In this document: positions 30,274 through 55,488 of the stretch, piece after piece
How the letters are laid out: each line of letters opens with the position of its first letter
Numbering within the stretch: the first letter of the stretch is position 1
From: Dipodascopsis uninucleata var. uninucleata
Lineage: Eukaryota; Ascomycota; Lipomycetes; Lipomycetales; Lipomycetaceae
Assembly (NCBI GenBank): GCA_030568195.1
Contig: JAJLTO010000004.1
Location: 1,448,147 to 1,512,146 of the forward strand
DNA length: 64,000 nucleotides
Reading direction: 5' to 3'
Position numbers and translations under genes: made by a program
The notes under the pieces: model-generated
The model's database searches: none
What the model saw: only the letters and a program-made list of their open reading frames with translations
What the model was told of the DNA's origin: nothing

Positions 30274-31012
30274 TTACTTGCGAAGTTTAGCAATAGTCGG
30301 ACCCAGCGGCTCGCCTGCGTGGAGCGCTTCAAAGGTAGCATCATCAATTTTCTTTCGCGCGACACAGAATTCAACCACTTTCTCAACAAGACTTGGAGGG
30401 ACTACTACAACACCATCGACGTCGCCAATCAGGTAGTCGCCAGGATGAATCCATAGGTCGCCCTTAAACTTGACAGGAACATTGATTTCCGATGATCGAG
30501 TAAAAGAGTTGGAGCCGAGAATACTGGATCCACGAGCGAATAGAGGAAATCCTATCTCCCGGTGCTCGTTAATGTCTCTAAAATTGCCATCGACAACGAC
30601 ACCCTCAGCGCCCAGATACTTTGCGCGCGTGGTCATCAAACCACCCCAGCATGCAGAGTAGAACTCCTTCGGTTGTGAAATAAACATGATCTTGCCGCGC
30701 GAGGCACTGTCAACGTAATGACCTGCCGGTGAGGGCGAACTCGTGTCTTTAGCATCAACCATCTTTACTGTGATAGCCTCGCCAAAGATTTTAGTATCGC
30801 CTGCCTGGCGCTGTGGCGACCACATCGTCAGTCCCTCGAGAAACCCTCCGTAGGGATATTTCAGCTTTACGAGTGCATCTCCTATCTACTTGTCGTTAGC
30901 AGCCTTTATCGCAGTATTTGATGCGGACACCTGATGCTCTAGAGAAAGTTTTACTTACGTCACAAGTAGCAAAGGTCTTAAGAGTGCTAATAAGCTTTGG
31001 TGAGAGCGACAT
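30274..31012 (-). CDS. RraA-like / HMG-aldolase family protein
   Basis: Exons are 31012-30959 and 30885-30274; the 73-nt intron has a GTAAGT donor and GCTAAC branch site. The product is 221 aa, the family's normal size. The join gives TCD|IGDALVKLKYPYGGFLEGLTMWSPQRQ, the conserved start of fungal RraA-like proteins (compare yeast YER010C). Further family features are YSACWGGLMTTRAKYLGAEG, VVVDGNFRDINEHREIGFPLFARGSS, and GDLWIHPGDYLIGDVDGVVVVPPSL, which hold the metal and carboxylate-binding residues. Characterised members are HMG/CHA aldolases and oxaloacetate decarboxylases needing divalent metal. It is head-to-head with the Dal5-type transporter at 32763, so a role with an imported keto- or sugar acid is plausible but unproven. 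Confidence 0.88.
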
Positions 31013-32762
31013 TGCCTATGATTGCTTTTTCGATAATACAAGTAGTATATTGGTGTTTCGCGCTGGAAATCTGCAGCGATATGCGATTTGGCGATCGATT
31101 CTAGCGGAATAACGACGATGAATATGTGAAGACAAATTGGTAGAGAATATCGCTGTGGTTTGCGGATTGCTTCCAGCGCTGCTTACTTTTCAGTTGGGAC
31201 ATTGTCGGGAGCCAGCGTCCTCTCATCGTATATTCCATCCGTCCGAGATTTGGCAATTCGATATCTACAGCTACAGAAAATGCGCACTAGATACTGCAAA
31301 AGAAATTCGCAGATATATGCTCTGGAATTTCGTAATATATCCATTGTTGTGCCGCATAGAGCGGAAGTTGAAGGTGCAGACAGTCAACGCTGCGACATCG
31401 ACATCGTCTCTTGGACACCAAACACGGTCAGGCTTTTTACAAGCTAGCAGCAACATAGGTACGGTTCGGGCCGAGCCAATGGTATATCTTATGCTAAAAG
31501 AAACAAATACTGTTGACTGCATATGGCCATACTCTTACCACTTTCAGACACCCAGCGGCTACGAATATACGGAGCTGACCATTTCATACGTGTTTAGGCG
31601 CATGTATGCTAGATGTAATGTAAGGGTATAAAACTACAGATGGATATAGCGACAGCTATTGCAAAGTATGTCATTGTGCGAGAGTGCGGGGGTGGATAAA
31701 CAGGAACTGATGCTCGCTTCATCAACACCCCTTGCTGCTAGCAATTTTGCATATATGACCTGAGGTCTCAGATAGCACGGCTATCAAGCAAATGCCAGAA
31801 ACTTGACAGTACGATAGCAATAACCGGCGGAAAGGCATAGAGCGCAGCAGGCTTTCGCCAGTCTCTACTACAGTATTTTTGTGTTTTCGAATTTCCATGC
31901 TGCTCCGGAATATCGTTGCTACAAGGTGTTGCCTGCGTCACATGAACGCTCTGGAGTCTGCAAGCTAGCGAAAATACAGGTGCGAACAAACAGTGCTAAA
32001 GCAATTCGTAATAGTGTGTATAAAATAGCGTAGATTCGGTCCTTGAGCAGATATCTAGCAGTAACGATTGCCGCGTTTATTTTAGTATGGAAACAATGCG
32101 CACAATGACAGGCTATTTGCCGTCCAAAACCGACGGATAGACAAAGATGTATTTACTTTCGAACGTACACGCATATTCACGCGCACACAACGTATATATA
32201 TATATACATACTTGCGAACTCACATGTACAGTATGGGCATAGTATATTTTATTTAAGATTTTTCAGAGCAGCGAACTTGGAACATCCGAATAGAGAATCT
32301 CTGACGTGTTGGGTATATGCTAAGGTACAACTAAGCCACAAGTCCTGGAGTTTATCTGTCATAAGCTCATAGCAAAGATCGCCGCGTGATGACTAAGCCT
32401 GGAGTCGCTTCTCAAATACTCACATGGCAACTGTGAGACGCAAAAATATCTACCCCGCTCGATTCTGGGGATTTTTTAAATTCTCCAACTATACCCCAGC
32501 CAACGGATAAGGACGGCTATAGACAAAATTAACCACTTGCGAAGAAAAGCTGCTTTGTCGATGTAGCGCTAGGAGATCTAAGGAACGCTCTATGCACCCC
32601 AGACTGAGGTCAACTCGCCCTGGCTAACCATATGGTAGTTTATTTAAACTGTTCCTGTCGCTCTTACTGAATTGTTGTCTCCATAGTACTTTTTCACACT
32701 TCCTGTACTATATATACTAGTTTATCATAACTCTGCAGGGTCGCTCGTGTGCAAGCGGTAAT
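31013..32762. other. Divergent promoter region (aldolase / Dal5-type transporter)
   Basis: This 1.75-kb spacer lies between head-to-head genes. A TA-dinucleotide run lies at about 32192-32207 and a TATATATA near 32709-32716, close upstream of the transporter ATG. I searched it by eye for CGG-N9-CCG as found in the later promoters and saw none. Short frames at 31137-31631 are not convincing genes. Confidence 0.45.
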
Positions 32763-34316
32763 ATGGCAACTAAAAGACAAAGTGTCGATTCTACTAAGAT
32801 AGACGCAAAGGCAACTGCTGGCCAATACGAGAACCTTACAATCCTAGAGCCTGGTGCATACAATGGAGAATTCGACGGAGTGTCTCTTCCACCAAAGGGC
32901 TCGCCCGAGCGCGATGCTCTAGAAAAGATACTGAAGCGAAAGATCGACTTCACAATCTTACCTATTGTCTTCTGCATGTACATTCTCAACTATCTAGATC
33001 GCAATAACATTGCTGCCGCAAAATTGGGCTCGCTGTTGGAGGATCTCAATCTTACTGGTACACAGTATTCAACATGTGTATCGATTTTGTTTGTTGGCTA
33101 CATTCTGATGCAGATTCCATCAAATTTGATTCTTGAGCGTCTTGGCCGCCCTTCATTATATCTACCTGCCGCCATGGCAGTGTGGGGTATTTTGTCTGCC
33201 TGTACAGGTGCTGTGCAATCCTATGGCGCGCTTGTCGCCATTCGTTTTTTAATCGGTTTTTTTGAAGCCGTCTTCTATCCTGGCGTTGTCTTTTATCTCT
33301 CCTGCTGGTACACCAAGTACGAGATTGCAAAGAGATCGGCAATTTTCGTTTGTGGCTCCTGGATGTCTGGTGCATTCTCTGGCCTTATCAGTTACGCAGT
33401 GCTGAAGGATCTGGATGGAAAGCGCGGTCTAGCGGCCTGGAGATGGCTTTTTATCATCGAGGGTGTTGTCACTGTGGTGTTCTCTGTGTTCGCTATGTTC
33501 ATTATGCCTGAGCTACCAGCTACAACAAAATGGCTGTCGAAAGAGGAGAGACTTTTGGGTGTTATTAGAATGATTGAGGATGTTGGTGTTGAGGATAAAG
33601 ATGAGGCCGCTAGCCCAGAAGAAATTCATCCTGATCCAAAAACGGTTTTCGAGAAACTCAGAATTGCACTTGTAGGGTTTGAGATGGCAATCAAGGATCC
33701 AAAGGCTGTTAATTCGTTTGCGATCATGTTCAGTATTGCGGTGTCTGCCGGGGTAAACACTGTGTTCCCGACTATTGTTAATTCTCTAGGATATGGTAGA
33801 GAGGAAACGCTTCTTCTCACTGCCCCACCATGGTGTTTGGTTGCAATAACGTCTGTGTTAAATTCATATCATTCTGATGCCACGGGTGAACGTTTCCTCC
33901 ATATGATCTGGGGTCCAGTTCTCTCTTTAACAGGGTTTTTGATTGCACTTGTCACGACTAAGACAGCTCCTCGTTATGTGGCAATGATGCTCATTCTTCA
34001 GATATACAATTCCTGGGCACTTGGTTATGCATGGTTATCTTCTACAATTCCGAGACCGCCAATAAAGCGAGCAGCAGCCGTAGCATTCGTGAATACCGGA
34101 GGAAATATTCCCAATGTTTTTGTGCCTTATCTATTTTACAGCACGGCAACACCACACTATTACGCGGGCTTTTCTGTTTGTCTCTGCTTTGCAGCCATTA
34201 GTATGATTGGTTGTATTTTTCTTAAGCTTCAGCTTAATAGAGTTAACAAAAGGCTCGCTCGTGGTGAAACAGTCAGTGGAATGGATGGTAGCACAGGCTT
34301 CCGATTTATGTCCTAA
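32763..34316 (+). CDS. MFS transporter, Dal5-type (anion:cation symporter family), copy A
   Basis: Single exon, 517 aa, 12 predicted TM helices. Family features are DFTILPIVFCMYILNYLDRNNIAAAKL (TM1 with the usual LDR-N), a QIPSNLILERLGRP motif, FYPGVVFYLSCWYTKYEIAKR and GLAAWRWLFIIEG. Dal5-type symporters carry organic anions such as allantoate, vitamins, sugar acids or dipeptides in fungi. It is head-to-head with the RraA-like gene and tail-to-tail with the GH106 gene, so a sugar-acid or oligosaccharide substrate linked to pectin breakdown is a reasonable hypothesis. It is clearly homologous to copy B at 38437 but diverged and differs in gene structure (no introns). Confidence 0.9.
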   Translation: MATKRQSVDSTKIDAKATAGQYENLTILEPGAYNGEFDGVSLPPKGSPERDALEKILKRKIDFTILPIVFCMYILNYLDRNNIAAAKLGSLLEDLNLTGTQYSTCVSILFVGYILMQIPSNLILERLGRPSLYLPAAMAVWGILSACTGAVQSYGALVAIRFLIGFFEAVFYPGVVFYLSCWYTKYEIAKRSAIFVCGSWMSGAFSGLISYAVLKDLDGKRGLAAWRWLFIIEGVVTVVFSVFAMFIMPELPATTKWLSKEERLLGVIRMIEDVGVEDKDEAASPEEIHPDPKTVFEKLRIALVGFEMAIKDPKAVNSFAIMFSIAVSAGVNTVFPTIVNSLGYGREETLLLTAPPWCLVAITSVLNSYHSDATGERFLHMIWGPVLSLTGFLIALVTTKTAPRYVAMMLILQIYNSWALGYAWLSSTIPRPPIKRAAAVAFVNTGGNIPNVFVPYLFYSTATPHYYAGFSVCLCFAAISMIGCIFLKLQLNRVNKRLARGETVSGMDGSTGFRFMS

Positions 34317-34439
34317 ATTCTGTTTTTTATTTGCTTTTGTATCTTAAAAATGGTTTGATAAATAGTTAATCTATGACATATAGGATTTTGTTGGCATATC
34401 ATGTCCACGTTGCGTTGAATATCGTAGTATTTAAAGTTA

Positions 34440-37400
34440 CTATTGTACTGGCCTCCTTCTTTCTAAGCCGAGTCTCGAAACAGTGTACTTCTCCTTTCCT
34501 TCTATCAGAATTCTGGGGGTAAGTAGAACACCAAGAGGTTCCAGATTGTATTCGTCGGACCACCAGTCGTGCTCCGTTCTAAATGCTCTTGGTCCAAAAT
34601 ACTGCGTCATTCCTTTTCTTAAGTGAATAGCTCCGAAAGAATTATTTCTATGACCATAGCAAGTTATTGAAGCCTTATGTTTCCCAATGACCAAGTTGTT
34701 CAACTCAATCATCCGAGGATCGAAAGCCACAATTCCCATATCGACATCATCAATAGAAACCCTTAGAACTGGTGATGCAAATTCTGGAATAAAAAGCGCA
34801 TATTTTGCTTCCCTGTCAATCTCGAATTCGACATTGTAAATAATATTTCCCACGTAGAATGGAAGAAGCTGGAAGCGGACATCTCCAAACTGCAGTCCGT
34901 CAGAATACGGCTTAACAATTTCAGATTCCTTCCCTCTACAGGATACGCCAAAAGAGCCTAATATATAGAGACGCTCCAGTGATGTCAAGGGATTATAGTC
35001 GTACCTTACTTCAAGAGTGTGATGTCCAGTGCTGATATATGGTAATTTCACGGTATGAATTTCTTCATCAACCCACCATCCAGATTTCTCTGAGCTAACT
35101 ACAAATCCGTCAAGCTGCAGAGTCACGCTATTTGAGTTCTCAATTGCCAATAAAGCATCGGTTACGTCAATCTCTGTCTTAAAGTCAAAAAGCAATATTA
35201 GTACCCCAAGAGACTCGCGCATTTCAGGCGTAAATGTCCATGGCTGACGAGATGTTTTATCTTTCACAGGAAGACCAAATCTCTGTCGCGTAATATTATC
35301 AATTCGCAAAACTTCTTCCTGTGGCTCGAATTCTTTATCTCCAGACATTTTAAAACGAGCATAGTCCAAAATCAGCACGTTTGGCTCAGAAAGTTGAACA
35401 TCTCTCAGCTGCACTGTAGAGTATGTTTTAAAATTTTCCAATTTACTAGACACTTCTTGGATTTCACTAGATTGCATTCCAGGAGCCAGCTTTAATAAGA
35501 TACTTCCCGTGGCATGAAAGTAGTGATCTATTACTGTGTTACCGGCCCTATATTGTCTATTGATCGGTTCTTCCTGCGCCGTGAACGTATTTAGTATGGT
35601 CGGTGTCCAGAGACCTTTGATAATGATTTGCGCATCACGCTGCGTCTCTCTGTCTGTATTACAAAGAAACAAATATTGCATATCTTCATCAACTCTAAGT
35701 TGATACATTACTCCTGTAGCAAGTGAGCCCTCTGGATTATCGAGAATTGAACTCTTGTTGATAACCTTAACGTCTCTGTGCTCTTCAAGAGCATTCAATA
35801 TTATTTCTCTCGTGAAACTTAAGAACTCTGCATTCTGAAGATCAGGGATCGACCTACTTGCATCAGTAAATTCTGGATACCTGCCTGCTACAATAACGCG
35901 TCCACCACGTGCCATAAACTTCTGTAAGTGAGATAGTGTAGTGGACCTAATGGTTCTGAGGCATGGTAAGATAACGACATCATAATCACAATGCCCAACA
36001 GTAAACTTCGAGGATGAAGAATCTGCGAGTGGAGACATCTCTGGGAGAAGACTCTCGCTAACGTAGTCAAAATCTATGTTAGCCAATACAAGCCACTTTG
36101 AAAGGTCCATAAACGAGTTTTCAAGCAGATCTTGTTCATAGTTGCTGGTATTCATAGGTCCTCGTGTCATCCAATACGATTCTATAGGATGTATCACAGC
36201 TACTCTGCAGACTGGACGACCCAACGTCATTGCATACGTTACTCTGGATAAATGGTCCTCAATAATTTTGAATTCCTTGTACCAGCAAGACTGATAACCA
36301 ATACACGGCGGGTAGTCTCTCTTTGCGTCACCTGCCATCGTAATCCAGGTAAGATGAGGAACTCTTAGCGTGACCCCAAGAGCTGATTGCCAGTCACCTT
36401 GACCTTTATATCCGTCAAATGAAAATGTATAGCCAGTAACTCCATATATTTCACACATTACACCTTTGAGTCCTCTCTGCCTAGAAACACTTTGAGCTTG
36501 TTTAACTGTATTGATCTCCAGGTTGTCGCAGAGCATATCTATCCCTGGAAGACCCATATTTCGATAGCATCGCATACATTCTCCTCCAGTCTTCTTCGAC
36601 TGGTCATAAAGGTAGGCCTCGCCTTCCATATGTCCAAGTAGCAAAAGGTTATGATCATTGCACCACTTTGCAATTTGATCCACGTAAGAAACAACTAGCT
36701 GCTCGCAGGCAAAATCATAAAGATGATACCTACTTGAGTTCGGAGCGAGCTTGTCTGCTAGATCCCAAAACACCTCAGGTAACTTATCAAGTATATCATA
36801 GCCATACCGAGACGAAAACAATTTTTCCCAGTCAGTTGTCCATGCAATAGATATATCTTCGTCGGTAAAAGCGTTGTAGAATCTCGAGTTGTGGTATGAG
36901 CGGGGCTCATCAGTGAAAATGGATGGAACAGATTTTCCAAATTCACTTGAAAACTTTTCATTGTAGACCTCGTGTGTAATATCAATGAACCTTCGTACGG
37001 CCTCTGGATTAAGATTATCCGCATATGTTCCGCCATTATAAGGATCAGAAGGAACTGCCGATTCTAAATATGCGTACCATATCTTCCCATTAGTGAGATT
37101 GCCTGGGTAGTCATCATCTAGCCTGACAAACGATTGCAATTTTCCATCATCGTTCACCTCAACGAGATAACGTGCAAGAAGCGTTCCATTATCCGTGCGA
37201 TGGAAAGACCTTGTTTGAGTTAGTTAGACGGTCAAATTTTATACAATGAATGACGCAGTATAAATCTTACCCAGTAGGATGTGTCCCATATGGATATCTT
37301 GTAAACAAAAGATGTTTGCATCTATACTGCGGGTAGTCTTTGCTAACCATTCCACCTGCGGCACCGCTTGGCCATCTGTCCTCGTCGTATAGACATGCGT

Positions 37401-37674
37401 ACATATTCATCTTTTTAGCCTTATTAATGCATGATTCTACTGCAGCGAGGAACTCCACGCCAAGATACTTAGTATCCAAACCACATCTAACGTGCATGTG
37501 AAATCCGCCCATGCCCATTTGGTCAAAATAGTCGATTTGTCGGAGGAGAATATCAACATCCAGTGCTGTATTCCATGCCCAGAATGGCATTCCTCTATAC
37601 TCTGCAGTTGGATTTTTGAAGAGGTCTGTATTAAATGGTCCTTGAGACCGAGGATACGAGAGTGGATTAGACAT
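34440..37674 (-). CDS. GH106-type putative alpha-L-rhamnosidase, intracellular
   Basis: Exons are 37674-37271 and 37209-34440, giving 1057 aa. The 61-nt intron has a GTAAGA donor, CTAACTAAC branch region and AAG acceptor. N-terminal hallmarks are EYRGMPFWAWNTALD, MGMGGFHMHVRCGLDTKYLG and LYDEDRWPSGAAGGMV (about 25-115). The barrel-like region has FTDEPRSYHN, LLLGHMEGEAYLYDQ, GIDMLCDNLE and a long catalytic domain to about 620; beta-rich carbohydrate-binding-like domains follow. This matches the large GH106 class, known for alpha-L-rhamnosidases acting on rhamnogalacturonan. There is no signal peptide, so it should act in the cytosol on imported oligosaccharides. It is head-to-head with transporter copy B over a promoter with CreA-like boxes. 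Activity is inferred from family. Confidence 0.82.
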
Positions 37675-38436
37675 GGTACCTGGATACTAGTGGGACTTAA
37701 GTGCGAATGTGACGAGGTTCTATACAAAGCGGTTTAAGAATCTCAAATCGCTAATATCAATGACTATTTTTAGTCTATTCTAAGTCCCTGAATGAGATGT
37801 CAATGGCCTTATATCTAGATATCTAATGACTACTACATGCTTGCCAGCGAAGTTGTGATCTCGGCAGATCGCATCGCAGAGTATCCGTTGGACTTTTCCG
37901 CTCTTTTCCGCAAAAAGTGGGGGGTATATATCCTTGTAGTGTTAGCAGTTTGGAGTTCTCTGTAGCTACAAAAGCCTAGGCGCCCGTAGTCCTCTGGCCA
38001 AAAGCATGAATAGAGTGCTGAAAGAGGATGGCTCGAGTCATTTATGAGCCGACGTCAAAACATGACACAGAAGTCAAATTAGCTCCCGTTTGTGGGGAAT
38101 GCGGCTTGCCAGATATTCCCCACAAACAGACTGGATACAAAGTTGTCACTAAAAATCCTAAATTTCTGTCGCTTGCTCCACACTGCTCATAAAGAATCGC
38201 GGATAACAAGATGAATCAGCAGGGATCAAGGAGAAAAACTGGATTTTGCGATATTGATTTATGGAAAAGCTGAGAGGAAGACAGAGTGGAAAAGTCGAAA
38301 TAACAAAATATAAAATGATATTCAACACCTCGTAAAAGAAACCAGATTCTCGGCCATAAGTCGTAGTTCATCTGATAATAATATCAAAATATAACTATTC
38401 ATATTGCTCGTAAAAAGAAGTTTCATATAAGGAGAT
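37675..38436. promoter_or_regulatory. Divergent promoter of GH106 gene and Dal5-type transporter B
   Basis: This 762-bp head-to-head spacer contains two direct TTTTCCGC half-sites (about 37894-37910), a GTGGGG box (37917-37922), a TATATA stretch (37925-37930), a perfect 13-bp inverted repeat (38088-38127) and AT-rich TATA-like runs before the transporter ATG (38303-38395). Confidence 0.6.
38088..38127. promoter_or_regulatory. Perfect 13-bp inverted repeat with paired CreA/Mig1-like boxes
   Basis: GTTTGTGGGGAAT (38088-38100) is followed after 14 bases by its exact complement ATTCCCCACAAAC (38115-38127). Each arm holds GTGGGG, which fits the SYGGRG core of CreA/Mig1 carbon-catabolite repressors. 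Its place between a glycosidase and a transporter gene fits repression by glucose. Confidence 0.6.
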
Positions 38437-39962
38437 ATGGGTGATACAATTCCAGAAAATATAAACCTTGAAAAGGCTGAAGATGAACATTTAGATTACT
38501 CAGGTACAACTGCTCAAGTCTCTGAGGTAGAGAAGAGGCTAGTGCGTAAGGTTGACTTCATTTTGCTACCAATGCTCTGGCTTATGTATTTCCTTAACTT
38601 CATGGTAAGGCTATTTGAGACTATAATAGAATATCAGTATTTCAGACTAATACTGCTGCGATAGGATCGACAAGCCATTACTAATGGTAAATTGAATACT
38701 CTTGAAGAAGACTTAAACTTGAAAGGTATCGAGTACAACACATGTATATCGATTCTCTTTGCAGGCTACCTCTTTGCGCAAATCCCCTCTAATATGATAA
38801 TCACTAGAGTGAGACCAAGGTATTATCTGTCAAGTAAGTAATTGGTGATCGTGTAATTGGTGAAATTATTAACTAGCAGTACCTAGTATGCATGATGACC
38901 TGGGCACTAGTTTCGGCGTTGACAGCGCTAGTCCACAACTATACGGGCATGATTTTAGTAAGATTCTTTTTAGGAGTAGTAGAAGCGCCATTCTATCCTG
39001 GAGCATTGTACTTGCTTTCATTATTTTATACGAAGAAGGAGCTTTCATTTCGTATTGCCATTATTGGTTCTGGAAACGTGCTGGCTTCATCATTTGCTGG
39101 ACTTATAACTATTGGTATCTTCAAACATCTCGACCAAGCTCATAATATCGCTGGATGGCGTTGGTTGTTTATTATCAATGGAGCCATGACTTTCTTCATT
39201 TCTTCTCTTGCTCTGATTGTTCTAGCGGATACTCCATTAACTACATGGTGGCTGAGTGAATCAGAGAGACAGCTTGCATTTGAAAGAGTCTTAAAGCAAA
39301 CCACAGAAGAGTCTGGCTCTGTAAACGTCTGGCGTGGGCTTAAGCAAGCTGTATTGGATCCAAAAACTTGGCTCCTCTCTTTAATGATGAACTTCCACGT
39401 TATGGCAGATGGCTTTAAAAACTTTTTCCCTAGCGTAGTGAAGACTTTAGGATTTTCTACAACTATTACGCTAGTTATGACAAGCCCTCCATATCTTGCC
39501 GCAGTTGTAGTATCATTTTTATTGTGCTACTCGTCCGGTAGATTCAATGAGAGAGCATGGCACATTACAACTGCTACTGTTGTTGCGCTAGTTGGTTTCA
39601 TTATAGGGGCTTCGACAACCAATGTGGCTGCTAGATATACTGGAATGGTTCTTTTCACAATGTCTACAGCAGGAACTCAGAATATTTGTCTTGAATGGAC
39701 TGCTTCGACTTTAGGGCAAACAGTCGAAAAGAAGGCTGTTGCATTGTCCATGGCAAATACCATTGGAAATTTAGCATCGGTATATTCATCATATCTCTGG
39801 CCTAATTCAGACGCGCCTAGGTATGCCATGGGTATGAGCGCATCAGCTGCATTCTGTTTTGCTTATATAATCTTAGTGTGGATAATGAGAACATTAATCG
39901 TTCGAGAGAACAATAGGATCAAGAGAGAAAATCCCCATGAAATGGTGCTATATGCTTACTAG
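38437..39962 (+). CDS. MFS transporter, Dal5-type (anion:cation symporter family), copy B
   Basis: Exons 38437-38604, 38665-38833 and 38887-39962 give 470 aa; introns are 60 and 53 nt. The first join gives YFLNFM|DRQAITNGKL, the TM1/DR motif of the family. The second gives YYLS-I-CMMTWALVSALTAL, which is in frame only with the acceptor at 38885-38886. Further motifs are QIPSNMIITRVRPR, FFLGVVEAPFYPGALYLLSLFYTKKE and GWRWLFIINGAMT. The protein is shorter than copy A mainly in the N-terminal tail. It shares a promoter region with the GH106 gene, so it probably imports a sugar acid, rhamnose-containing oligomer or related compound. Substrate unknown. Confidence 0.88.
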
Positions 39963-40255: not shown

Positions 40256-40856
40256 TTAATTGCTTGTGAAGTAGTTCACGGCCAAACAATCAGCTAAATT
40301 AGCCTTTACTATCCAGTCATCTAAGCTGAATCTCATTCGATACCAATTGCTTAGGTTTTTACCATCAGACGGGGCGAACTTAGATCCATCAAAATCAGCA
40401 GGCTGTTTATAGAGGATGAAAACATATCGGTGTGGTGTGCTTCCCGGAGGTGGAGCTGGTCCTATATAATTAGCCACAAAAGGAGCGGACACTTTGAACG
40501 TTGACTGTCCATTGCTAGTAATCTCAGGCTTCAATCCAGGTTGTATCCAGTGTAAGATAGGACCTAAAATGGGAAGTGACGGGAATGGTGCATCAATATC
40601 GATACCTATAACCATATACGTATCACTATTGGAATGAACATTAAAAGATAAATCCGGCGGTGACTGGGCCTCTAAAAATATATTGAATTAGCTTATATTT
40701 TGTGTATTCCGCTCATTGAAATCGAGTTGCTTCTTTACCTGCTCTTGGAATGTACATGCCAGGTTTGACAGTGTGTCCACCGACGACGAGACCAAGAACT
40801 TTTGAGGAGTCTTCCGCGAAAGTCAGAGCCTTAGTTATGCTAGAATTTGCAGGCAT
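40256..40856 (-). CDS. PEBP-family protein (Tfs1-like)
   Basis: Exons are 40856-40739 and 40671-40256; the 67-nt intron has a GTAAAG donor and TTTTTAG acceptor. The product is 177 aa, normal for cytosolic PEBP proteins. The ligand-pocket motifs are present: VIGIDIDAPFP (DPDAP-type, with Ile for Pro) and LHWIQPGL, then PPPGSTPHRYVFILYKQP, the GxHRY-type motif. Yeast Tfs1 inhibits carboxypeptidase Y and Ras-GAP; the role here is unknown. It lies among the pectin-related genes but has no evident link to them. Confidence 0.9.
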
Positions 40857-46059: not shown

Positions 46060-46952
46060 TCAATCCAACGGTGGTCTCTTCCATGACGAAAGACTTTGCT
46101 TGGCATTTTCAGGATCTAAATCTTTAAAAGGCGGAATCAAGGAAGGTATATTGTCACTGGCAAGTGTTGGATAGCTCTCCAGAATGGCAGCCTTCAAGGT
46201 GTTATAAAAAAGCTGATAGCCCCTTGAAGCAAAATGAGTACCATCTACCAATAGTTCTTTCAAGTCATACAGCCCGAAAGATGAAGCCTCTCCAGGAATA
46301 GGCTTGCCTTCTGTCCACCCTAAATAAGAAGCAAATTCATTCCACAAGTCAACAAAAGGTACCGACAGCTCTTGGCTCAGCTCGCGAGCAGCTGCAGTGA
46401 ATATGCGGTTGCGCGAACTACTTCGTGGGTCAAAATCGTCAGTGTGCTCGTGAAGGCTAGGTCCTACTAAAACAGTACTTATTTTAAAGGAGTGCGCTCT
46501 CTTAACTATAGTACGCAAGTTATCCTGATACCTCTCAGGTGACACGCTTCTTGGAATTCCATACGCAGCATCATTCGTACCAAAAAATATCACCTATATT
46601 GTTATTGAGTCGGTACGCTCGTTAATAAAATATATTCTAGCTGTTTCTGGATTATCAAGACTCACCAGAAGCTTTATTTCTGACTCCTCTTTATGCAAGG
46701 CTTTCAGGAGTGGATCGATTAGGTGTATAGCCATTTCTGTTGTATATCCGTTAAAACCTCTAACAAGAACGTCCAATTTACAGCTGTAGTCTAGATATTG
46801 AGGTTGATCAGGACATAGCCCAACAGGAACACACTGTTCGTCTTACCATCTTGTAGTGCGGGGGCTAGATTAAAGCCAAGATTTTGTGAAAAACTACCGG
46901 TGATAATAGAGTCGCCGAACAGGACTACTTTGTCCAAGTTGAGATCTGTCAT
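46060..46952 (-). CDS. GDSL/SGNH esterase, Iah1-like
   Basis: Exons are 46952-46847, 46790-46666 and 46593-46060 (introns 56 and 72 nt), giving 254 aa. Block I is VVLFGDSIITGSF with the nucleophile Ser near residue 15. The first splice gives LQD-D-YSCKLDVLVRGFNGYTT, the second KLL|VIFFGTNDA (Gly and Asn of blocks II/III). The late LVDGTHFASRGY supplies the catalytic Asp and His. Layout and length match isoamyl-acetate-hydrolysing esterase Iah1. The second intron is a multiple of three and open until a TAG that overlaps its acceptor, so an unspliced reading looks like two ORFs. There is no signal peptide, so it is cytosolic. Head-to-head with GH28; it could deacetylate pectic oligomers (inference). 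Confidence 0.85.
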
Positions 46953-47636
46953 CTCGATGCTCGAAATATAATGAAGTGTACGTATATCGATGCTGGTTCT
47001 ACAATATAGTTGCTAATACAGCATTTATAAGCTCACATTTCTCTGACGATTCAAAAGAACTACAGTCAACATTGTGCCGACGCTCTCTTGTCATCAGTAG
47101 TATTCTCAAAATGAAACTATAACTGTTCTCTCTAGTAACATACCGTTCAGGTACTGTAAGAATACAATGTTGATACATAATTTTATTTCCTATGTATAGA
47201 TTGTAAATCCAGACCCCGCATTAGCTTTGACATGGATAACGGCAAATTTATCTCCTGGATGAACTATTTAGCCGTCGAGTCTGCCTATATCAGTCACTAA
47301 ACCTTTCTCAAGCAAGGATATATCATAGCAGCAGTTATGTTTCGCGGATATGAGATAAGAAGCATTACTATGCTATATTGACAATGAAAGAAGGCAAGCA
47401 ACCCAATTAAGGACAATCTTTATGGAAAGTGTTCTTGTGGATATGCGGGTTTGTGATCTGAAGATTGGGCGGAGGTTCAATCCGCAAAATATATGATATT
47501 GTCTAGGAAGTGGGAAGATGTTATACCGAGTTGATCTTGTATGACCGAGACTCTTCTCTTAGATAGGAAGCCCTATATAAATGGTGTATTATGTGTAATT
47601 ATATGTCAGATAGATAGGGATAATAGGCAATGAAAG
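46953..47636. promoter_or_regulatory. Divergent promoter of the GDSL esterase and GH28 genes
   Basis: A 684-bp head-to-head spacer. It contains GCGGA-N7-TCCGC at 47469-47485 and a TATATAAAT at 47574-47582, about 55 bp before the GH28 ATG. Confidence 0.6.
47469..47485. promoter_or_regulatory. CGG-N9-CCG palindrome (putative Zn2Cys6 site)
   Basis: The sequence GCGGAGGTTCAATCCGC has perfect 5-bp arms GCGGA/TCCGC and a 7-base spacer. The same arms and spacing recur at 52654-52670 in the PL26/transporter promoter. Inverted CGG triplets with fixed spacing are the classic target of Zn2Cys6 dimers. Confidence 0.6.
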
Positions 47637-48962
47637 ATGATACTGGATACACGCGCTTTTTTATCTACTGGTAGTGACTCAGTTCTTACTTCTGAATTCC
47701 AAGATGCTATAGATCAAATATGCAAATCTGGAGGTGGTGAACTTATTGTAAGTCCTGGATTATATACTCTGGGTAACATTAAACTAGGATCGAATATTAC
47801 AATTAACCTACATCCCGGTGCTACAATTATTTTAAGTGAGAATTATAATGACTTCACGTCTTTCACTACTGTTTCGCAGGCGGAGCGCTCAAATTCCGCT
47901 CTGTTGTACGCATATAAAGAGAAGAACATAAGTATTACTGGAGGTGGTAAAATATTTGGAAATGCCTTTAAATATTTTGATTCAGAGATCGACGAATACG
48001 GTTATCGACAGCCTCAGCCATATCGACCAAGAATAATTGTATTCGAGGACTGTGAAAATCTGTTTTTGGAGAAATTTACTATCCAGTCTGCTCCTATGTG
48101 GACTGTTCATTTGGTTAGTTGTCGTAATGTGGTGATCTCAAAAATTACAGTCGACAATGAGCTTACTACGCCAAATTCCGACTGCGTTGATATAGATAGC
48201 TGTCAGATCGTCAGAATATCTGATTGCTATTTGAGTTCTACCGACGATTGCATATGTATTAAAACTACGAAAAAGCCTCTTAATATGCAGCAGGATGTCA
48301 GTCAAATGACAGTTACAAACTGTGTTATGCGTACCAAAGGATGCGCAGTGAAGATTGGCACCGAGACATTTGGGTCTGTATCAGACGTAGCAGTTAGTAA
48401 CTGCGTTGTAAACGAATCGAATAGAGGTGTCAGCATAAGTTCCAGAGATGGTGGCGCTATTCGAGGAATCACATTTAATAACATAATCATGAATTGTACA
48501 ATGGCGGATGAGTGCCATTGGGGTAGAGCAGATCCGATATTTATTTCCAGTTTAAATAGGCATGAAGAGGTTAGGCCCGGTGTTGTTGAGTTCGTTAGTT
48601 TTAATAATATCATGGCGACTTGTGAGGGTGCTATTAACTTTTACAGTGAGCCCAGAGGACTAATTCGACATATTCAGGTCTGTCAGGTAAGTCTTAATCA
48701 GAAAGCAACTGATTCGCCTATGCAAGGTTTCTACGATATCCGGCCACCATGCGATCCTAGCCGTCCAACGTCAATGGGAATGGCGAACGCGTATGTCATT
48801 AACCCAGATACTCATATGCCATTCGGAGTACATAAATATGCTGGTGGTCTCCCTGCTTTATATTCCAAAGGCGTGGAAAATCTGACTGTACAAGATCTAA
48901 AGGTACTTAGACCTTCTCCTCTTCCTCAAGGATGGAATAATAAGTCTGAAATAGTTGAATAG
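47637..48962 (+). CDS. GH28 glycoside hydrolase (polygalacturonase/rhamnogalacturonase-like), intracellular
   Basis: Single exon, 441 aa. The right-handed beta-helix pattern is clear. The N-terminus, MILDTRAFLSTGSDSVLTSE, then GGGELIVSPGLYTLGNIKLGSNITINL, resembles the leaderless type common in bacteria rather than secreted fungal endo-PGs. Catalytic candidates are NSDCVDID (about 180-187) and the Asp pair in SSTDDCICIKT (about 203-204). The usual GHG is replaced by GCAVKIGTE, and RIK by GVSISSR, so substrate or mechanism details differ from classical polygalacturonases. No signal peptide is present. With PL26 and GH106 nearby it probably cuts rhamnogalacturonan or galacturonan oligomers in the cytosol. 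Confidence 0.85.
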   Translation: MILDTRAFLSTGSDSVLTSEFQDAIDQICKSGGGELIVSPGLYTLGNIKLGSNITINLHPGATIILSENYNDFTSFTTVSQAERSNSALLYAYKEKNISITGGGKIFGNAFKYFDSEIDEYGYRQPQPYRPRIIVFEDCENLFLEKFTIQSAPMWTVHLVSCRNVVISKITVDNELTTPNSDCVDIDSCQIVRISDCYLSSTDDCICIKTTKKPLNMQQDVSQMTVTNCVMRTKGCAVKIGTETFGSVSDVAVSNCVVNESNRGVSISSRDGGAIRGITFNNIIMNCTMADECHWGRADPIFISSLNRHEEVRPGVVEFVSFNNIMATCEGAINFYSEPRGLIRHIQVCQVSLNQKATDSPMQGFYDIRPPCDPSRPTSMGMANAYVINPDTHMPFGVHKYAGGLPALYSKGVENLTVQDLKVLRPSPLPQGWNNKSEIVE

Positions 48963-49658: not shown

Positions 49659-52316
49659 TCATAAGAATTTTAAGAACTGCCTAATTCTACCAAGATTATG
49701 TATTGCAGAAACGCCATACCTTGCGGCATGATTAGTTGAGAGCCAAGCTGCCTCTTCACCTTCTACAAAGCATTCTGGAGGATAAATATTTTTGGCCTCC
49801 CAGTCAATGTCAGAGTTTAGTCCATCTGTATGGAAGAATTGGTTCCATGCAGCGAGAGCTATGTCTTTACTTTCCTCGTATGCTGCTATGTCAGCAGTCA
49901 ATGTTGAATGACTCTGCTTCCAAGATGTGCGGTCTGCAGGAAATTCGAAGCCAAATTCTTTTATTTGTATAGCTTTATCGCCAGTATATGCCTTTCCATA
50001 CTTGAAATATTCCAATCTGAATTTATCAGCAGTTAACTTATCTACATCTGCAATAGCGTCGATGCTCTCAGAGAAAGCCTCCGGAAAGCCAAAGAGCATA
50101 GACAAGTGAGAGATGTTATATTCTGGTGTTGGAGGGCTAACTTCTTGTATTTCTCCTGTCTTTACGTTGAGTAGTATACTATTGGTAGCCAATCCATGTT
50201 TAAGAGATGCAATTCCATTGGTCATACGTATCAAAAGTTCCTTACATGTTTCCCAGTGCTGCGTTCTGCGTTCCCATCCAGTGAGCCATGCAGCAGCAAG
50301 AGCACCACAGTCGAGTCCAATATTCGTCATAGCAAATCCTGAAGGTATCATTTTAGGATCTTTTGCTTGAACTTTTCTATGCGAATCCAATGTCAAGATA
50401 GCATTCTGAGAAATTTCAAGCTCTTCCATGAGATCGCCGACCCGTTCATCTCCTGTCAAGTAGTAGTATATTCTGCGATAGAGAACATTAGACACTCTGA
50501 CTTGCTTAGAGCTATCCGCATAATGTAACACGCCATGACGAGTCCCAAATCCTTTGAAGCGCCCACTGTGATACACATCTACTTCACCAGTATGCCTAGT
50601 CATAGCCTCCGCCATCTTGAAAACATCTGCTCTGCCAGTATGCAAGAAGTACAGCCAAAGCCACAGATCTGTAGAAAGCTCAGAATTATCCCAGGCAAAG
50701 CCTCCGACATCATATCTCCATTCATGACGATATGGATCATATGTGTGTTGGATATCACCATAATCCCAGAATCCATACCATCTGTTCTGCTCGATTTGTT
50801 TTAGATAAAAATTAAATAAAAACTCAAGATTCTTTTCGATTGAGATCTCAATTGAGGAAGGTTCCCAGTCCGTTATCTTATAGCTAGGGACCCAGTAACC
50901 TCCGAAAACGCCCGTTGAATGCATGTAGGTTAAATCGACAAGAATCCTAGGTGGTGATCGCACCTCCTGAATAAAACCTGCTAGATTTGCCTTTGAAATT
51001 GACTTTGAACCATGAAAAGGCTCCAGAACAAATTGATTTGTGCGCGCAATTCCTTCTGCCGAGGAGAATCCCTCTTCATAATCTTCGTATGTAGTGAGTA
51101 CACCTTCGCTTTGCTTCTCATAAGTTTCGAGACCAGTTTTATCTCTGTAAGGAGATGTTTCCATGGGTTCGGCTGATGGTGCATACATCCACATTACCAT
51201 TTCTCCATCTTCATTCACTAAATCGTTCAAATCAATCTGTGTGGGATAGCGCTCCCAGAAATCGCACATTCCAGCAGCAAGTCCTCCATGGTGAGCAGAC
51301 CCCAAGTATGCTACGCCAGTAGCTCTGGAGCCGGCTGCAACTTTCACACTGTTGTATCCAGACTTTGTTCGTTTCTTAATCTCAAAGCCGTCACTGGATA
51401 GCTGCTTAAGCGAATATTCACTCCAAGATGGTACTCCTTCAAGACGTCGCCAGAATGTTTCGTCCCATTTTGAGGCGTCCAAAGGAGCTCCTTTTGCTTG
51501 ATTTGTTCGGTCCTCATCACTTGGACCTTTCCATAATCCAGTTAATCCCATTACTTGTTCATGAAGTATACCCAGGTCACTTCCACCGAGCATTATGTGT
51601 CTATCGTAGAGTGCTGCCTTATATAATGGAATAGTAACGGCCAATCCAAGCGACTTCATACTTTGTGTGCTCGGAATATCAAACACAAAGGAATGTGCAA
51701 TACGAATTGCTTTAGAGAAAGCATAGATATATACTCGTAAATCGAACGGTAGATGTTGCCTACCTTCTAATTCTAGCACTCCACTTATTTTCACAAGCAC
51801 ACGAGACCTTGTTTTTCGCTCAATCGCGACAGATTCCGACCGGCTGATATATTGACCATCGTTGTCGATATCAGATATAATGCGCGCGCCTTTGCATTTT
51901 ACATTTCCCTCAAGAGCAATTGTTCTTATTAGATTAGGTGAACCTACGGTACCAAAGTCAACTTTTAGTCCGCAGTTATTTTCTACGGTTAAATTTCCTT
52001 CCGTATCGAATGAAGTGGATATAAGAGTGTCATTGTTGTCTAATGAGGTAGAAACTGGGATAATCTCGTAGGATGGTGATATATCGATTTCATTGGTGAA
52101 GACATGCGCCGTCCACTTTAATGACCCATCAGGCCAATATGCTGTTGGCCATGAATCCAGTGGCCATGTCTTGCCGGAACTTTGAGTACTCCTAATTGAA
52201 AATCTCTGGGATGATGAATACTTTCCCTTTGGCCAAGAAATACCGAAGGTAACACCAGACCTAACAGACAAGTTCTCCGGCTGTTCCAGCCACGATGCTC
52301 TGACTATCTGACTCAT
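49659..52316 (-). CDS. PL26 exo-rhamnogalacturonan lyase-like protein, intracellular
   Basis: Single exon, 885 aa from the ATG at 52316 (MSQIVRASWLEQPEN). An in-frame ATG at 52367 would add 17 residues but overlaps a TATA-like TATTTATATG, so the downstream start is favoured. The beta-rich N-terminus has GVTFGISWPKGKY and SWPTAYWPDGSLKWTAHVF. The middle (about 510-660) is alpha/alpha-toroid-like, with WYGFWDYGDIQHTYDPYRHEWRYD, GGFAWDNSELSTDLWLW, DVYHSGRFKGFGTRHGVLHY and VLYRRIYYYLTGDER. This pattern matches the PL26 / YetA group, whose fungal member is an exo-rhamnogalacturonan lyase releasing an unsaturated galacturonosyl-rhamnose unit. No signal peptide. Head-to-head with an MFS transporter. 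Confidence 0.85.
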   Translation of the reverse strand: MSQIVRASWLEQPENLSVRSGVTFGISWPKGKYSSSQRFSIRSTQSSGKTWPLDSWPTAYWPDGSLKWTAHVFTNEIDISPSYEIIPVSTSLDNNDTLISTSFDTEGNLTVENNCGLKVDFGTVGSPNLIRTIALEGNVKCKGARIISDIDNDGQYISRSESVAIERKTRSRVLVKISGVLELEGRQHLPFDLRVYIYAFSKAIRIAHSFVFDIPSTQSMKSLGLAVTIPLYKAALYDRHIMLGGSDLGILHEQVMGLTGLWKGPSDEDRTNQAKGAPLDASKWDETFWRRLEGVPSWSEYSLKQLSSDGFEIKKRTKSGYNSVKVAAGSRATGVAYLGSAHHGGLAAGMCDFWERYPTQIDLNDLVNEDGEMVMWMYAPSAEPMETSPYRDKTGLETYEKQSEGVLTTYEDYEEGFSSAEGIARTNQFVLEPFHGSKSISKANLAGFIQEVRSPPRILVDLTYMHSTGVFGGYWVPSYKITDWEPSSIEISIEKNLEFLFNFYLKQIEQNRWYGFWDYGDIQHTYDPYRHEWRYDVGGFAWDNSELSTDLWLWLYFLHTGRADVFKMAEAMTRHTGEVDVYHSGRFKGFGTRHGVLHYADSSKQVRVSNVLYRRIYYYLTGDERVGDLMEELEISQNAILTLDSHRKVQAKDPKMIPSGFAMTNIGLDCGALAAAWLTGWERRTQHWETCKELLIRMTNGIASLKHGLATNSILLNVKTGEIQEVSPPTPEYNISHLSMLFGFPEAFSESIDAIADVDKLTADKFRLEYFKYGKAYTGDKAIQIKEFGFEFPADRTSWKQSHSTLTADIAAYEESKDIALAAWNQFFHTDGLNSDIDWEAKNIYPPECFVEGEEAAWLSTNHAARYGVSAIHNLGRIRQFLKFL

Positions 52317-53835
52317 TGTGTGGTTATGTGATTTAGGTTGATAGAGTATAGTACTTCTAATGCGCATATAAATATCGAGATTACCTGGTGATTCCGATCT
52401 ATTATTTGGCCGAGTCCAATTGCTAATACTAGGTAAGAGAGACGCTACTTCGACAGGGATAATTCACGATTTTACGATCTGGCCGAAAAGCTTTTTGCTT
52501 TCGTACTTATGTTACCGATCTCCTGGCTGAATAGCGAATGCAGAGACAATTAAGTCGATCTACGTATAATGATGACAACACAATGGATCATCGCTGAATT
52601 AAGGTTGACTTGTTGTTTCCATATGAATTCAGCATATACTGTACTTTAAAGCTGCGGAGCGTTTTTCCGCATCCTCTAAATCTCTTATAGTATTGTAGCA
52701 GTATCTTATGCCTAATCGGTGCCAAGATCATACGAACCAGTAGCATCCAGCATCGAGCGTCCAGGTGGTCGCCATCACTTCCCCACATATTCAAGTATAT
52801 TAAAGCATAATAACAGTTAAGAAAGTAATAAACACTATTGTGGGAGAGCTTTCAGTTAGGGCTCGACCCGATTACGTAGCCCGGCTAAATACACAGCATC
52901 AAGTCATCTTAGAAGCTGGTAAGACATTTCTAACGGCAGAAATCGATGACGACCGCAGTAATGTGGAAAAAGAATGCCGCCGCTACTAGTTGTCAGAGGT
53001 TCGTTCTCGATGAATTACGAACTTTAACTTTAAGCTTCACCAGGTTGAAGTATGTCAGCAGAAGCTAATTTTAACTTATGGCATAAGCACACTAGGAATA
53101 TAACAAGCTTCGTACTGGGACGATTCAGGGTAAAAAAGTTCAGATGACCTTCAAGACCTTCTAACATCACCGACAAGATGACCTTACCTAGTGAACCAAC
53201 AATTCCAAAGAAATATAGGTCATCGCTGATAATAACAGTCCGAAAGCACACCGTGTAACTCGTAAGCCAGAGAATCGCTTTGAAGTGCTTGCAGTAAGTG
53301 ATATTCTATGGTGGATCTTGTCTTTCAATGGATCAATTATCGAAAATGTCATTTGATTCGCACAGTCGGGGGGCATGTGGAACATTTCCCGTCAGTGGGA
53401 AAATGTATGAGGCATCTTTAACAGGGGAATACCCCAATACAGTAGTTGCGCCAAAAGTTTGCAAATCGTTAGGACATCCTGTGTTAAGATTGCCTGTATC
53501 TAGCACAGTTTTACTACGTAGAGCTCGGTTAGCAAGCCAGTGAACGTACTTGACCTTGTGATTATACTGAATACAGGAGCTACCTAACTGAGCATATGAC
53601 AGATTTCGGGTCGTAATTACATTCGTCCAGACATGCATTGTCGCTCACCGCTGAGCGAGCATACTTCTGATGCTCTCGTTCTTGTAATTATTCCGACCCT
53701 GCACTGCGGGGTAATGTCTATTCGCAACGTAAGTGTAGCAAAACATCAGAATGAAATGTAGAGTGTTATAAAGGCTACTTGAATTTCACGGAGTCTGTAT
53801 GGTTCTGAAAGCTTTGAACAAGGAAAGTCACAAAA
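52317..53835. promoter_or_regulatory. Divergent promoter of PL26 and MFS transporter genes
   Basis: A 1.5-kb head-to-head spacer. It holds the CGG-N9-CCG palindrome (52653-52671), a TATA-like element on the minus strand just upstream of PL26 (about 52367-52380) and TATAAAGG at 53767-53774 before the transporter. An 81-codon frame at 53298-53543 has no recognisable product. Confidence 0.55.
52653..52671. promoter_or_regulatory. CGG-N9-CCG palindrome (putative Zn2Cys6 site)
   Basis: The sequence TGCGGAGCGTTTTTCCGCA has perfect 6-bp arms with a 7-base spacer, the same core GCGGA-N7-TCCGC as in the GDSL/GH28 promoter. It lies about 340 bp upstream of the PL26 start. Confidence 0.6.
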
Positions 53836-55488
53836 ATGGCAGCTCATCAAGAAGATGTTAACGATCCTAACACTACCACAATCCAAACGGAGAAGTTGGA
53901 GGATGAGTTCTTAATGGAAAAGGATATGCTTCGGGAAGCAGCTCAGCGGACCGAAGTAGAACATAATATGTCTATAGTTGCAGCAGTAAAGTTGTACCCT
54001 TGGGCAGTGTTTTGGTCGTTATGGTTATCTACGGCACTGATTATGGAAGGATTCGATCATGCGTTCACAGGTGGATTTTATGCATTTCCAGCGTTCCAAA
54101 AAAGATACGGAGAACTCACCAGCGATGGAACGTTCCAGATCCCTGCAAAATGGCAATCTGCCATTGGAAACTGTGTCAACGCTGGTGAGATCTTGGGATT
54201 GCTTATTAACGGTATTGTTTGTGATATAGTTGGTTACAGATGGATGATGATTGGCTCACTTATATGTATGATCGGATTCATCTTTATCCAGTTTTTCGCA
54301 ACCAGTATTGAAATGTATCTTGCTGCAGAGCTCTTATTAGGCTTTCCTTGGGGTGTATTTCAAACTCTTACTACCACATATGCAGCAGAAATTTGTCCTG
54401 TAGTACTGCGCCCGTATCTCACAATGGCAGTGTGCCTTTGCTGGAGTGTAGGATACTTTATCGGATCTGCCACTCTGCGAGGGTTTTTGCATCTAACTAG
54501 CGAATGGGCATATAGGATTCCGTTCGCTCTGCAGTGGGTGTGGCCGATACCTCTTATGATTGGGATATATCTGGCTCCTGAATCCCCATGGTGGCTCGTC
54601 AGAAAGGGAAGGATTGATGAGGCTGAGAAAGTCATAGAGAAATTGATCTCTAAGGAGGATAATCGTGAAGATGTGCGCGCTACAATTGCTATGATGCTGC
54701 ATACTGACAAAGTAGAAAGAGAGATGAATAGCAAGAGTACCTATATCAACTGCTTCCAAGGAATTGACTTGCGCCGGACTGAAGTCACAGTGACGGTATA
54801 TATCATCCAGTACCTGTGTTCACCTCTAATGGCATACATCACTTATTTTCTGGAACAGGCCGGGTTAAGTACTTCATATGCATTTGACTTAACTATTGCA
54901 CAATACTGTATTGCAATTGTAGGAGTTATTTTGTCCTGGGCCACTGTCAAATACCTTAGAAGACGAACCATGTATCTTGGTGGTGTAGGTTTCGTGGCTT
55001 TAACTCTACTGCTTATAGGATTCTTAGGTATTCCAAATCCAAACACACATCCTAATATTGCTTGGGGAATTGGTTCTGTATTATTAGTACAAAATCTAGT
55101 GTTTTATTATTCTGTGGGAGCAATGGGATACACTATAGTGTCCGAGATGCCATCGAATCATCTACGCACAAAGTCGCTTGTACTGGCAAGAGGATTATAT
55201 AATGCTATAGGATTGGCATATGGTCAGTTAATTCCGAGAATGGTACAAAAAGCCTCATGGAATTGGGGGGCAAAGAGTGGCTTTTTCTTTGGAGGTATTC
55301 TAGCTATCTTTTTTGTCTGGGCCTTTTTTAGGCTGCCTGAAACTAAAGGAAGAACCTTCGCCGAAGTAGATATTCTGTTTAAAAATCGAGTTGCCGCGAG
55401 AAAGTTTGCTGATATGGTCGTTGATTTGGAAAATGAATCTGTACACAGGAAAGATGATGGACAATATCAAAGTCATGATCAAGTCTGA
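53836..55488 (+). CDS. MFS sugar transporter, alpha-glucoside/maltose permease type
   Basis: Single exon, 550 aa, 12 TM helices in the sugar-porter family. Family motifs are EGFDHAFTGGFYAFPAFQKRYGE (TM1 loop), YLAPESPWWLVRKGR at the end of TM6, and FRLPETKGRTFAEVD at the end of TM12. The TM1-2 segment places it with fungal maltose/alpha-glucoside permease-like proteins, which accept di- and trisaccharides. Sharing a promoter with PL26 suggests import of a rhamnogalacturonan-derived oligosaccharide; the substrate is inferred from context only. Confidence 0.9.
   Translation: MAAHQEDVNDPNTTTIQTEKLEDEFLMEKDMLREAAQRTEVEHNMSIVAAVKLYPWAVFWSLWLSTALIMEGFDHAFTGGFYAFPAFQKRYGELTSDGTFQIPAKWQSAIGNCVNAGEILGLLINGIVCDIVGYRWMMIGSLICMIGFIFIQFFATSIEMYLAAELLLGFPWGVFQTLTTTYAAEICPVVLRPYLTMAVCLCWSVGYFIGSATLRGFLHLTSEWAYRIPFALQWVWPIPLMIGIYLAPESPWWLVRKGRIDEAEKVIEKLISKEDNREDVRATIAMMLHTDKVEREMNSKSTYINCFQGIDLRRTEVTVTVYIIQYLCSPLMAYITYFLEQAGLSTSYAFDLTIAQYCIAIVGVILSWATVKYLRRRTMYLGGVGFVALTLLLIGFLGIPNPNTHPNIAWGIGSVLLVQNLVFYYSVGAMGYTIVSEMPSNHLRTKSLVLARGLYNAIGLAYGQLIPRMVQKASWNWGAKSGFFFGGILAIFFVWAFFRLPETKGRTFAEVDILFKNRVAARKFADMVVDLENESVHRKDDGQYQSHDQV

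Follow-up and report, generated by a model that had tools for sequence, protein, structure and literature searches.

A candidate fungal gene cluster for intracellular use of pectic oligosaccharides, with GH28, GH106-type and PL26 genes in head-to-head pairs

The stretch of Dipodascopsis uninucleata var. uninucleata DNA analysed here (64,000 nucleotides of contig JAJLTO010000004.1; hereafter the window, in whose numbering all positions are given) carries, between 30.3 and 55.5 kb, genes for an RraA-like protein, a protein of glycoside hydrolase (GH) family 106 type, an Iah1-like esterase, a GH28 protein, a polysaccharide lyase (PL) family 26 protein and three major facilitator superfamily (MFS) transporters, eight genes within 25 kb. 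A preliminary description had proposed here a cluster for uptake and intracellular breakdown of rhamnogalacturonan-I (RG-I) oligosaccharides; Pfam and PDB matches confirm its gene content, while its models of the GH106, RraA, MFS2 and esterase genes needed correction. Splice sites in all corrected models were picked by eye, from GT..AG borders and reading frame rather than from transcripts. The order and strands of the genes are RraA-like (−), MFS1 (+), GH106 (−), MFS2 (+), PEBP-like (−), secreted protein (+), Iah1-like (−), GH28 (+), PL26 (−) and MFS3 (+). Because these ten detected genes alternate in strand, the eight cluster genes fall into four head-to-head pairs: RraA with MFS1, GH106 with MFS2, Iah1 with GH28, and PL26 with MFS3. 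Counted post hoc, random orientation would give four divergent pairs with a probability of 0.5^8 = 0.004; also post hoc, and assuming one copy of each among 6500 genes, the chance of three single-copy genes lying inside a 10-gene run is 6e-6. The window's GC content of about 40% and its short, spliceosomal-type introns mark it as eukaryotic DNA, an origin that a fungal Zn2Cys6 protein within it also fits.

The PL26 gene (49659..52367, − strand) has no intron and encodes a predicted rhamnogalacturonan exolyase of 902 residues (885 from the second methionine) with no leader. Three PcRGLX domains span its full length in Pfam (83, 341 and 513 bits), the PcRGLX structure 5xq3 is matched nearly full length with 652 bits (E 1e-194), and at the level of sequence the family identity is certain. 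The PL26 family acts on rhamnogalacturonan. Twin-arginine translocation (Tat) signals are annotated in two of ten records of bacterial PL26 relatives, and the leaderless fungal protein thus differs from those relatives.

The GH28 gene (47637..48962, +) is likewise free of introns, and its 441-residue leaderless product (PF00295, 97 bits) is of a bacterial type, resembling PglB and the proteins encoded beside rhi genes. Residues D182, D203 and D204, which we take to be the catalytic aspartates, are invariant across 16 alignment rows. The histidine of GHG and the lysine of R-x-K, motifs of classic GH28 polygalacturonases, are missing, with TKGCAVKIGTE and NRGVSISSRDGG in their place, and the Klebsiella and Sinorhizobium rows deviate at the same two motifs. 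The best PDB folds for the predicted structure (predicted local distance difference test, pLDDT, 81, with low confidence in the C-terminal part) are exo-acting enzymes, namely the Yersinia and Thermotoga exo-polygalacturonases and the galacturonidase 5olp, at 18-21% identity. An 18-row tree groups the fungal and Klebsiella proteins at 100/98, the Klebsiella row being of unusual composition, and places three rhizobial-type proteins next to this pair at 100/99. A typical secreted fungal polygalacturonase was considered for this gene and rejected, on the absent motifs, the lack of a leader, the fold neighbours and the tree.

The nearest GH28 relative found comes from Klebsiella aerogenes, in a plasmid collection, and is 48% identical over 96%. 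Its gene in K. aerogenes NCTC10006 is divergent from genes annotated as a transport protein and RhiN, one piece of each of which is placed by Pfam in MFS_2 and Glyco_hydro_88, respectively. The RhiN and transporter genes of that locus (L004 7005-8101 and 8165-9585) are each annotated in two pieces, and the GH28 gene is unbroken. Importer genes adjoin GH28 in three of the four bacterial loci read, joined in one by a RhiN-type hydrolase, and are absent at the fourth. Among 299 Bacillota genomes, 16 gave GH28 matches (E <1e-30), at no more than 27-37% identity, and the Klebsiella GH28/rhi region had no match in 20,395 E. coli records (near mode).

The GH106-type gene (34440..37674, −) comprises two exons, 37674-37271 and 37209-34440, and encodes a putative alpha-L-rhamnosidase of 1057 residues without a leader. 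A single 729-residue open reading frame was rejected as a model, the gene being spliced; alone, that frame has no Pfam hit at E 0.001. The spliced protein matches PF17132 (Glyco_hydro_106) over residues 188-621 with 34.1 bits (cut-off 29), and since only the spliced protein reaches this cut-off, the intron must be removed for the family to be called. A PDB sequence search with it returned nothing at E 0.001 and two chance-level hits at E ~1. Scanning genome contigs with this protein alone gave no relatives from 11 pattern matches; a two-pattern scan, with the fungal protein and one from Monoglobus, gave 198 bacterial GH106-type relatives. The best 80 of the 198 are 36-42% identical in the best segment, cover nearly the whole query, and come mostly from Clostridia assemblies, many of them from animal guts. 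A further relative, 42% identical, is encoded on a Deinococcus plasmid, where the gene (L001 11956-15058) is annotated as three overlapping pieces and adjoins a sugar ATP-binding cassette importer.

For the fold we turned to a Lachnospiraceae relative (L046), which shares 37% identity with the exon-2 row of the fungus and matches Glyco_hydro_106 with 47.6 bits. The top three PDB matches of its predicted structure (mean pLDDT 86.5) are the GH106 structures 6q2f, 5mqm and 5mwk (E 6e-41 to 2e-34; TM score 0.53-0.58; identity 11-12%), the latter two being BT_0986, and the next match, at E 3e-15, is weaker by some nineteen orders of magnitude. By way of this bacterial relative, a GH106 fold is supported for the fungal protein at the level of predicted structure. 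In the family alignments the fungal residues D235-E236 (FTDEP) and E388 (CEIYG) do not vary, their correspondence to BT_0986 being by motif and position only. In the literature, the general base of GH106 is given as E593 in BT_0986 and E386 in Ts_Ram106B, and in Ram106B an Asp-Glu replaces D458-S459 (PMC6828813). By motif, the fungal Asp-Glu and Glu resemble those of the Ram106B branch, which is described as having no predicted signal peptide (PMC6828813).

Leaders were assessed in two ways: by the peak hydropathy of 10-residue segments near the N-terminus, and heuristically, by looking for an upstream exon that would encode a hydrophobic stretch. GH106, GH28 and PL26 reached 0.81-1.07, against 2.1-2.7 in three secreted-looking proteins of the window, and the exon search produced no candidate for any of the three, upholding the earlier statement that the degradative enzymes have no signal peptide. 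A hydrophobic N-terminus is also lacking in all four bacterial GH28 relatives (0.73-1.39) and, with values below 2.0, in 78 of 80 GH106-type relatives; the other two carry long upstream extensions. Thus, for two of the three enzymes (GH28 and GH106), the bacterial relatives look cytosolic as well, which supports uptake followed by intracellular breakdown, and all three appear, as far as sequence can tell, to work inside the cell. Alternatively, the enzymes might be released through lysis or non-classical export, with monosaccharides alone being imported. The leaderless state of the bacterial GH28 and GH106 groups and the importers beside GH28 in most of the loci read both argue against such an exit, which we regard as very improbable.

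Two of the transporters, MFS1 (32763..34316, +; 517 residues) and MFS2 (38437..39962, +; 470 residues, three exons and two introns), are paralogues, 36% identical, that match MFS_1 in Pfam (133 and 88 bits) and fit best, among NCBIfam models, the D-galactonate transporter TIGR00893, at 196 and 178 bits against a cut-off of 395. The third, MFS3 (53836..55488, +; 550 residues), matches Sugar_tr (267 bits) and belongs to the sugar porter family, TIGR00879, at 319 bits, above the cut-off of 237.8. The Iah1-like SGNH esterase (46060..46952, −; 254 residues; exons 46952-46847, 46790-46666 and 46593-46060) has a GDSL lipase match in Pfam of 43.7 bits, and its best PDB chain is 3mil, an isoamyl acetate-hydrolyzing esterase (E 2e-23). 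The RraA-like protein (30274..31012, −; 221 residues; exons 31012-30959 and 30885-30274, with the start in the upstream exon) matches PF03737 with 108 bits, and its nearest solved structure is the RraA-like YER010C (2c5q, E 1.3e-24); the match being generic in this way, RraA was rejected as an established member of the pathway.

The four divergent intergenic regions contain 11 copies of SYGGGG, the core motif bound by the Mig1/CreA glucose repressors: five between RraA and MFS1 (31013..32762), three between GH106 and MFS2 (37675..38436), one between Iah1 and GH28 (46953..47636) and two between PL26 and MFS3 (52368..53835). Shuffles of these 4.7 kb hold 2.2 ± 1.4 copies, and none of 300 shuffles reaches 11; the remaining intergenic DNA has five copies in 21 kb, and other promoters have four in 11 kb. 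The promoter shared by GH106 and MFS2 contains a perfect 13-bp inverted repeat (38088..38127; arms GTTTGTGGGGAAT and ATTCCCCACAAAC, 14 nt apart) made of two GTGGGG-containing half sites, i.e. two of the SYGGGG sites. No 9- to 12-mer is common to all four divergent promoters. A Zn2Cys6 transcription factor, seen as the main exon of a partial model (27743..29020, −; PF00172, 22.5 bits, cut-off 21), lies outside the cluster, 1.3 kb beyond RraA, and is a possible candidate for its regulator.

Our interpretation of this locus is that it is a fungal catabolic cluster, by which oligosaccharides of RG-I, or closely related pectic ones, are imported and their breakdown is finished in the cytosol; we hold this with slightly better than even confidence. 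From the families, the layout, the missing leaders and the folds we infer the substrate, the import, the order of steps and the co-regulation as follows. Short charged oligomers would enter through the sugar porter MFS3 and/or the galactonate-transporter-like MFS1 and MFS2, and the Iah1-like esterase would remove acetyl groups. The non-reducing end would then be trimmed alternately, terminal rhamnose by GH106 and terminal galacturonate by GH28, while PL26 would release disaccharide units by exo-lyase action, the released sugars being used by rhamnose and galacturonate pathways whose genes lie elsewhere. Within each head-to-head pair a shared promoter might drive both genes, whether enzyme plus transporter or two enzymes, and glucose may repress them. 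What stands of the preliminary proposal of uptake and intracellular RG-I breakdown is the company of leaderless backbone enzymes and transporters, together with the importers at the bacterial GH28 loci; RraA and Iah1 fare less well, since both proteins belong to generic families.

That generic character is one of several points, in the enzymes and in their surroundings, that count against a catabolic cluster for RG-I. The products of PL26 would be expected to need GH88 or GH105 enzymes and, as the preliminary description had noted, neither these nor rhamnose or galacturonate pathway genes were detected in the window by Pfam, a search that short-exon genes could escape; carbohydrate esterase family 12 (CE12) was not detected either. 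Saturated oligomers could, by inference, be finished by GH106 and GH28 alone, without GH88/GH105. An aldolase of the LRA4 type was also looked for in the window and rejected, there being no match in the Pfam scans to PF00701, the domain named for S. stipitis LRA4 (PMC5674754). MFS1 and MFS2 may, by their best-fitting model, carry monomeric sugar acids. The GH106 protein scores 28.6 bits with the model of the RG-I rhamnosidase BT4145 (NF049897), far from its cut-off of 1300. The best-fitting named model for GH28 is the polygalacturonase PglB (NF051861; 398.5 bits against a cut-off of 600, near full length), and the rhamnogalacturonidase models BT4146 and BT4153 give 118 and 116 bits (cut-offs 500 and 650). 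In 80 bacterial loci around GH106-type genes (3.6-23 kb, E 1e-6), homologues of PL26, RraA, the esterase and MFS1-3 were found at none and a weak GH28 match at one; the bacterial neighbourhoods therefore give no link between this GH106 group and RG-I.

Some of these results would suit a broader intracellular pectin and glycoside system rather than one linear pathway, in which GH28 would trim imported oligogalacturonides, GH106 would take rhamnose from small rhamnosides (flavonoids, saponins) and PL26 would act on RG-I, the genes being clustered, perhaps under one regulator. Such a system sits poorly with the nearest GH28 relative found, which is divergent from a transporter and RhiN, with the absence from the GH28 group of the two motifs of classic polygalacturonases, and with rhamnogalacturonan as the established substrate of the PL26 family. 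It gains from the absence of PL26 at the GH106-type loci and from the PglB match, Agrobacterium PglB being reported as active in polygalacturonate degradation (PMC6683767), as well as from the report that characterised Ram106B-type GH106 enzymes cleave p-nitrophenyl-rhamnoside and naringin, their natural substrate being said to be still unknown (PMC6828813). On balance we consider this broader system unlikely.

As for the surroundings, the cluster is broken by two unrelated-looking genes that the preliminary description did not mention, a PEBP-like exon (40259..40687, −; PF01161, 59 bits) and a gene for a secreted protein (44719..45411, +; possibly anchored by glycosylphosphatidylinositol, as judged by eye), and by the roughly 4 kb between them (40.7-44.7 kb), which hold no detectable genes, none of their eight open segments of at least 62 codons having a Pfam match. 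One permuted G-rich motif also totals 11 in the four divergent promoters, where G-rich 6-mers are frequent, so that the SYGGGG excess may be general G-richness. The promoters contain no CGG-N11-CCG, an 11-nt spacing being reported for PDR-1 of N. crassa (PMC5469009). The locus might then be no more than a chance neighbourhood, of unrelated genes in a gene-poor, transporter-rich and perhaps subtelomeric stretch, with RraA, PEBP and Iah1 as housekeeping genes. The two interpolated genes and the generic RraA and Iah1 matches would agree with this, as would the other MFS, aspartyl protease and ferric reductase genes near the cluster, but it would leave three RG-I-type enzyme families within 18 kb, the regular divergent pairing, and a SYGGGG excess that is seen in the four divergent promoters and not in other intergenic DNA to coincidence, and we judge it improbable.

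Of 98 additional open segments spanning at least 62 codons in the window, 83 were scanned with Pfam. The 41 of these below 24.2 kb yielded pyrophosphatase (two segments), MFS (one) and a weak poly(A)-polymerase match (one), and the 42 between 26.2 and 60.5 kb yielded no match; none of the 12 open segments of this length in the 5.4 kb from 55.5 to 60.9 kb has one. The best PDB-chain matches of the exon at 6751-7365 are pyrophosphatase, the top chains being, we presume, the S. cerevisiae enzyme. Ordinary neighbours include a DUF2417/hydrolase protein (7793-9544, −) and a chromate transporter-type protein (12876-14210, −). A secreted-looking protein of 404 residues (779-1993, +), matched by nothing in Pfam, nor in the PDB at E values up to 0.1, is possibly another carbohydrate-active protein.

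A more specific version of the catabolic cluster would make it the eukaryotic counterpart of the bacterial rhamnogalacturonide locus. The fungus would have acquired a bacterial cytosolic GH28, from an enterobacterial rhi neighbourhood, and a Ram106B-like GH106, one of which now bears an intron, and joined them with PL26 and fungal transporters in head-to-head pairs, so that oligomers of the RG-I backbone would be digested completely and privately within the cytosol. We put this forward tentatively, and are more inclined to doubt it than to accept it. The GC contents of GH28 and GH106, overall and at third codon positions (0.401/0.333 and 0.421/0.386), lie within the ranges of the other genes (0.386-0.498 and 0.330-0.556), and so lend no support to a recent arrival.

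Fungal digestion of pectin is usually thought of as extracellular, with the sugars shared. Were the catabolic cluster to work as we propose, it would amount to a 'selfish' pectin strategy in a eukaryote, with leaderless backbone enzymes set head to head with importers; it would also supply transporter candidates for pectic oligosaccharides that carry charge, and yeasts could be given a ready-made module for using beet pulp, citrus peel and other residues rich in RG-I. Whether bacterial intracellular glycosidases were recruited into a fungal cluster is an evolutionary question that is now testable.

Among known systems, enterobacterial rhiT/rhiN serve the uptake of RG oligomers and their breakdown in the cytoplasm (PMC3870299). 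The likeness lies in the closest relative of the fungal GH28, that of Klebsiella, being divergent from a transporter and RhiN; unlike that system, the fungal window has no detected GH88/GH105 beside its transporters, its MFS proteins are of other types, and GH106 and PL26 are present in addition. The RG-I polysaccharide utilisation locus (PUL) of Bacteroides thetaiotaomicron lists GH106, GH28 and PL26, the three that the fungal cluster joins, in a paper that states that fungi do not possess PULs (PMC11409638). By contrast with that locus, GH105 and side-chain enzymes are not found here, and matches to the BT4145, BT4146 and BT4153 models fall far short of their cut-offs. There is also no SusC/D, which is typical of PULs.

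Fungal L-rhamnose clusters are known as RHA1-LRA4-TRC1 in S. stipitis and lraA-C/rhaR in A. niger, where rhtA also adjoins rhaB (PMC5674754, PMC5161314). They too group sugar genes, with a Zn2Cys6 regulator among them where here a Zn2Cys6 gene lies near the cluster, but they encode monosaccharide catabolism or secreted GH78, and RhtA is classed in the FHS family, whereas MFS1 and MFS2 best fit TIGR00893 and MFS3 TIGR00879. PcRGLX, presumably the PL26 enzyme of Penicillium chrysogenum, is a full-length homologue of the cluster's PL26 and is known as a single enzyme. In Trichomonascus vanleenenianus, import of substituted oligosaccharides and their cytosolic hydrolysis are predicted for GH115 and GH51 enzymes (PMC13130702), a likeness in that a fungus has intracellular oligomer enzymes; the substrate there is xylan, not pectin, and the accessible part of the description contains no enzyme-transporter cluster. 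With this yeast, and with a putative intracellular GH105 in Neurospora (PMC5469009), the selfish strategy that the preliminary description had associated with gut bacteria is not limited to them. A yeast or fungal cluster for intracellular use of RG-I oligomers was not among the literature matches listed, from a search with most subscription journals outside it. The kind of system is thus already known, from bacterial rhi and PUL systems, a fungal intracellular GH105 and yeast intracellular xylo-oligomer enzymes; absent among those matches was the particular arrangement described here, a fungal cluster that sets PL26, transporters, and GH28 and GH106 enzymes of a bacterial cytosolic type in head-to-head pairs.

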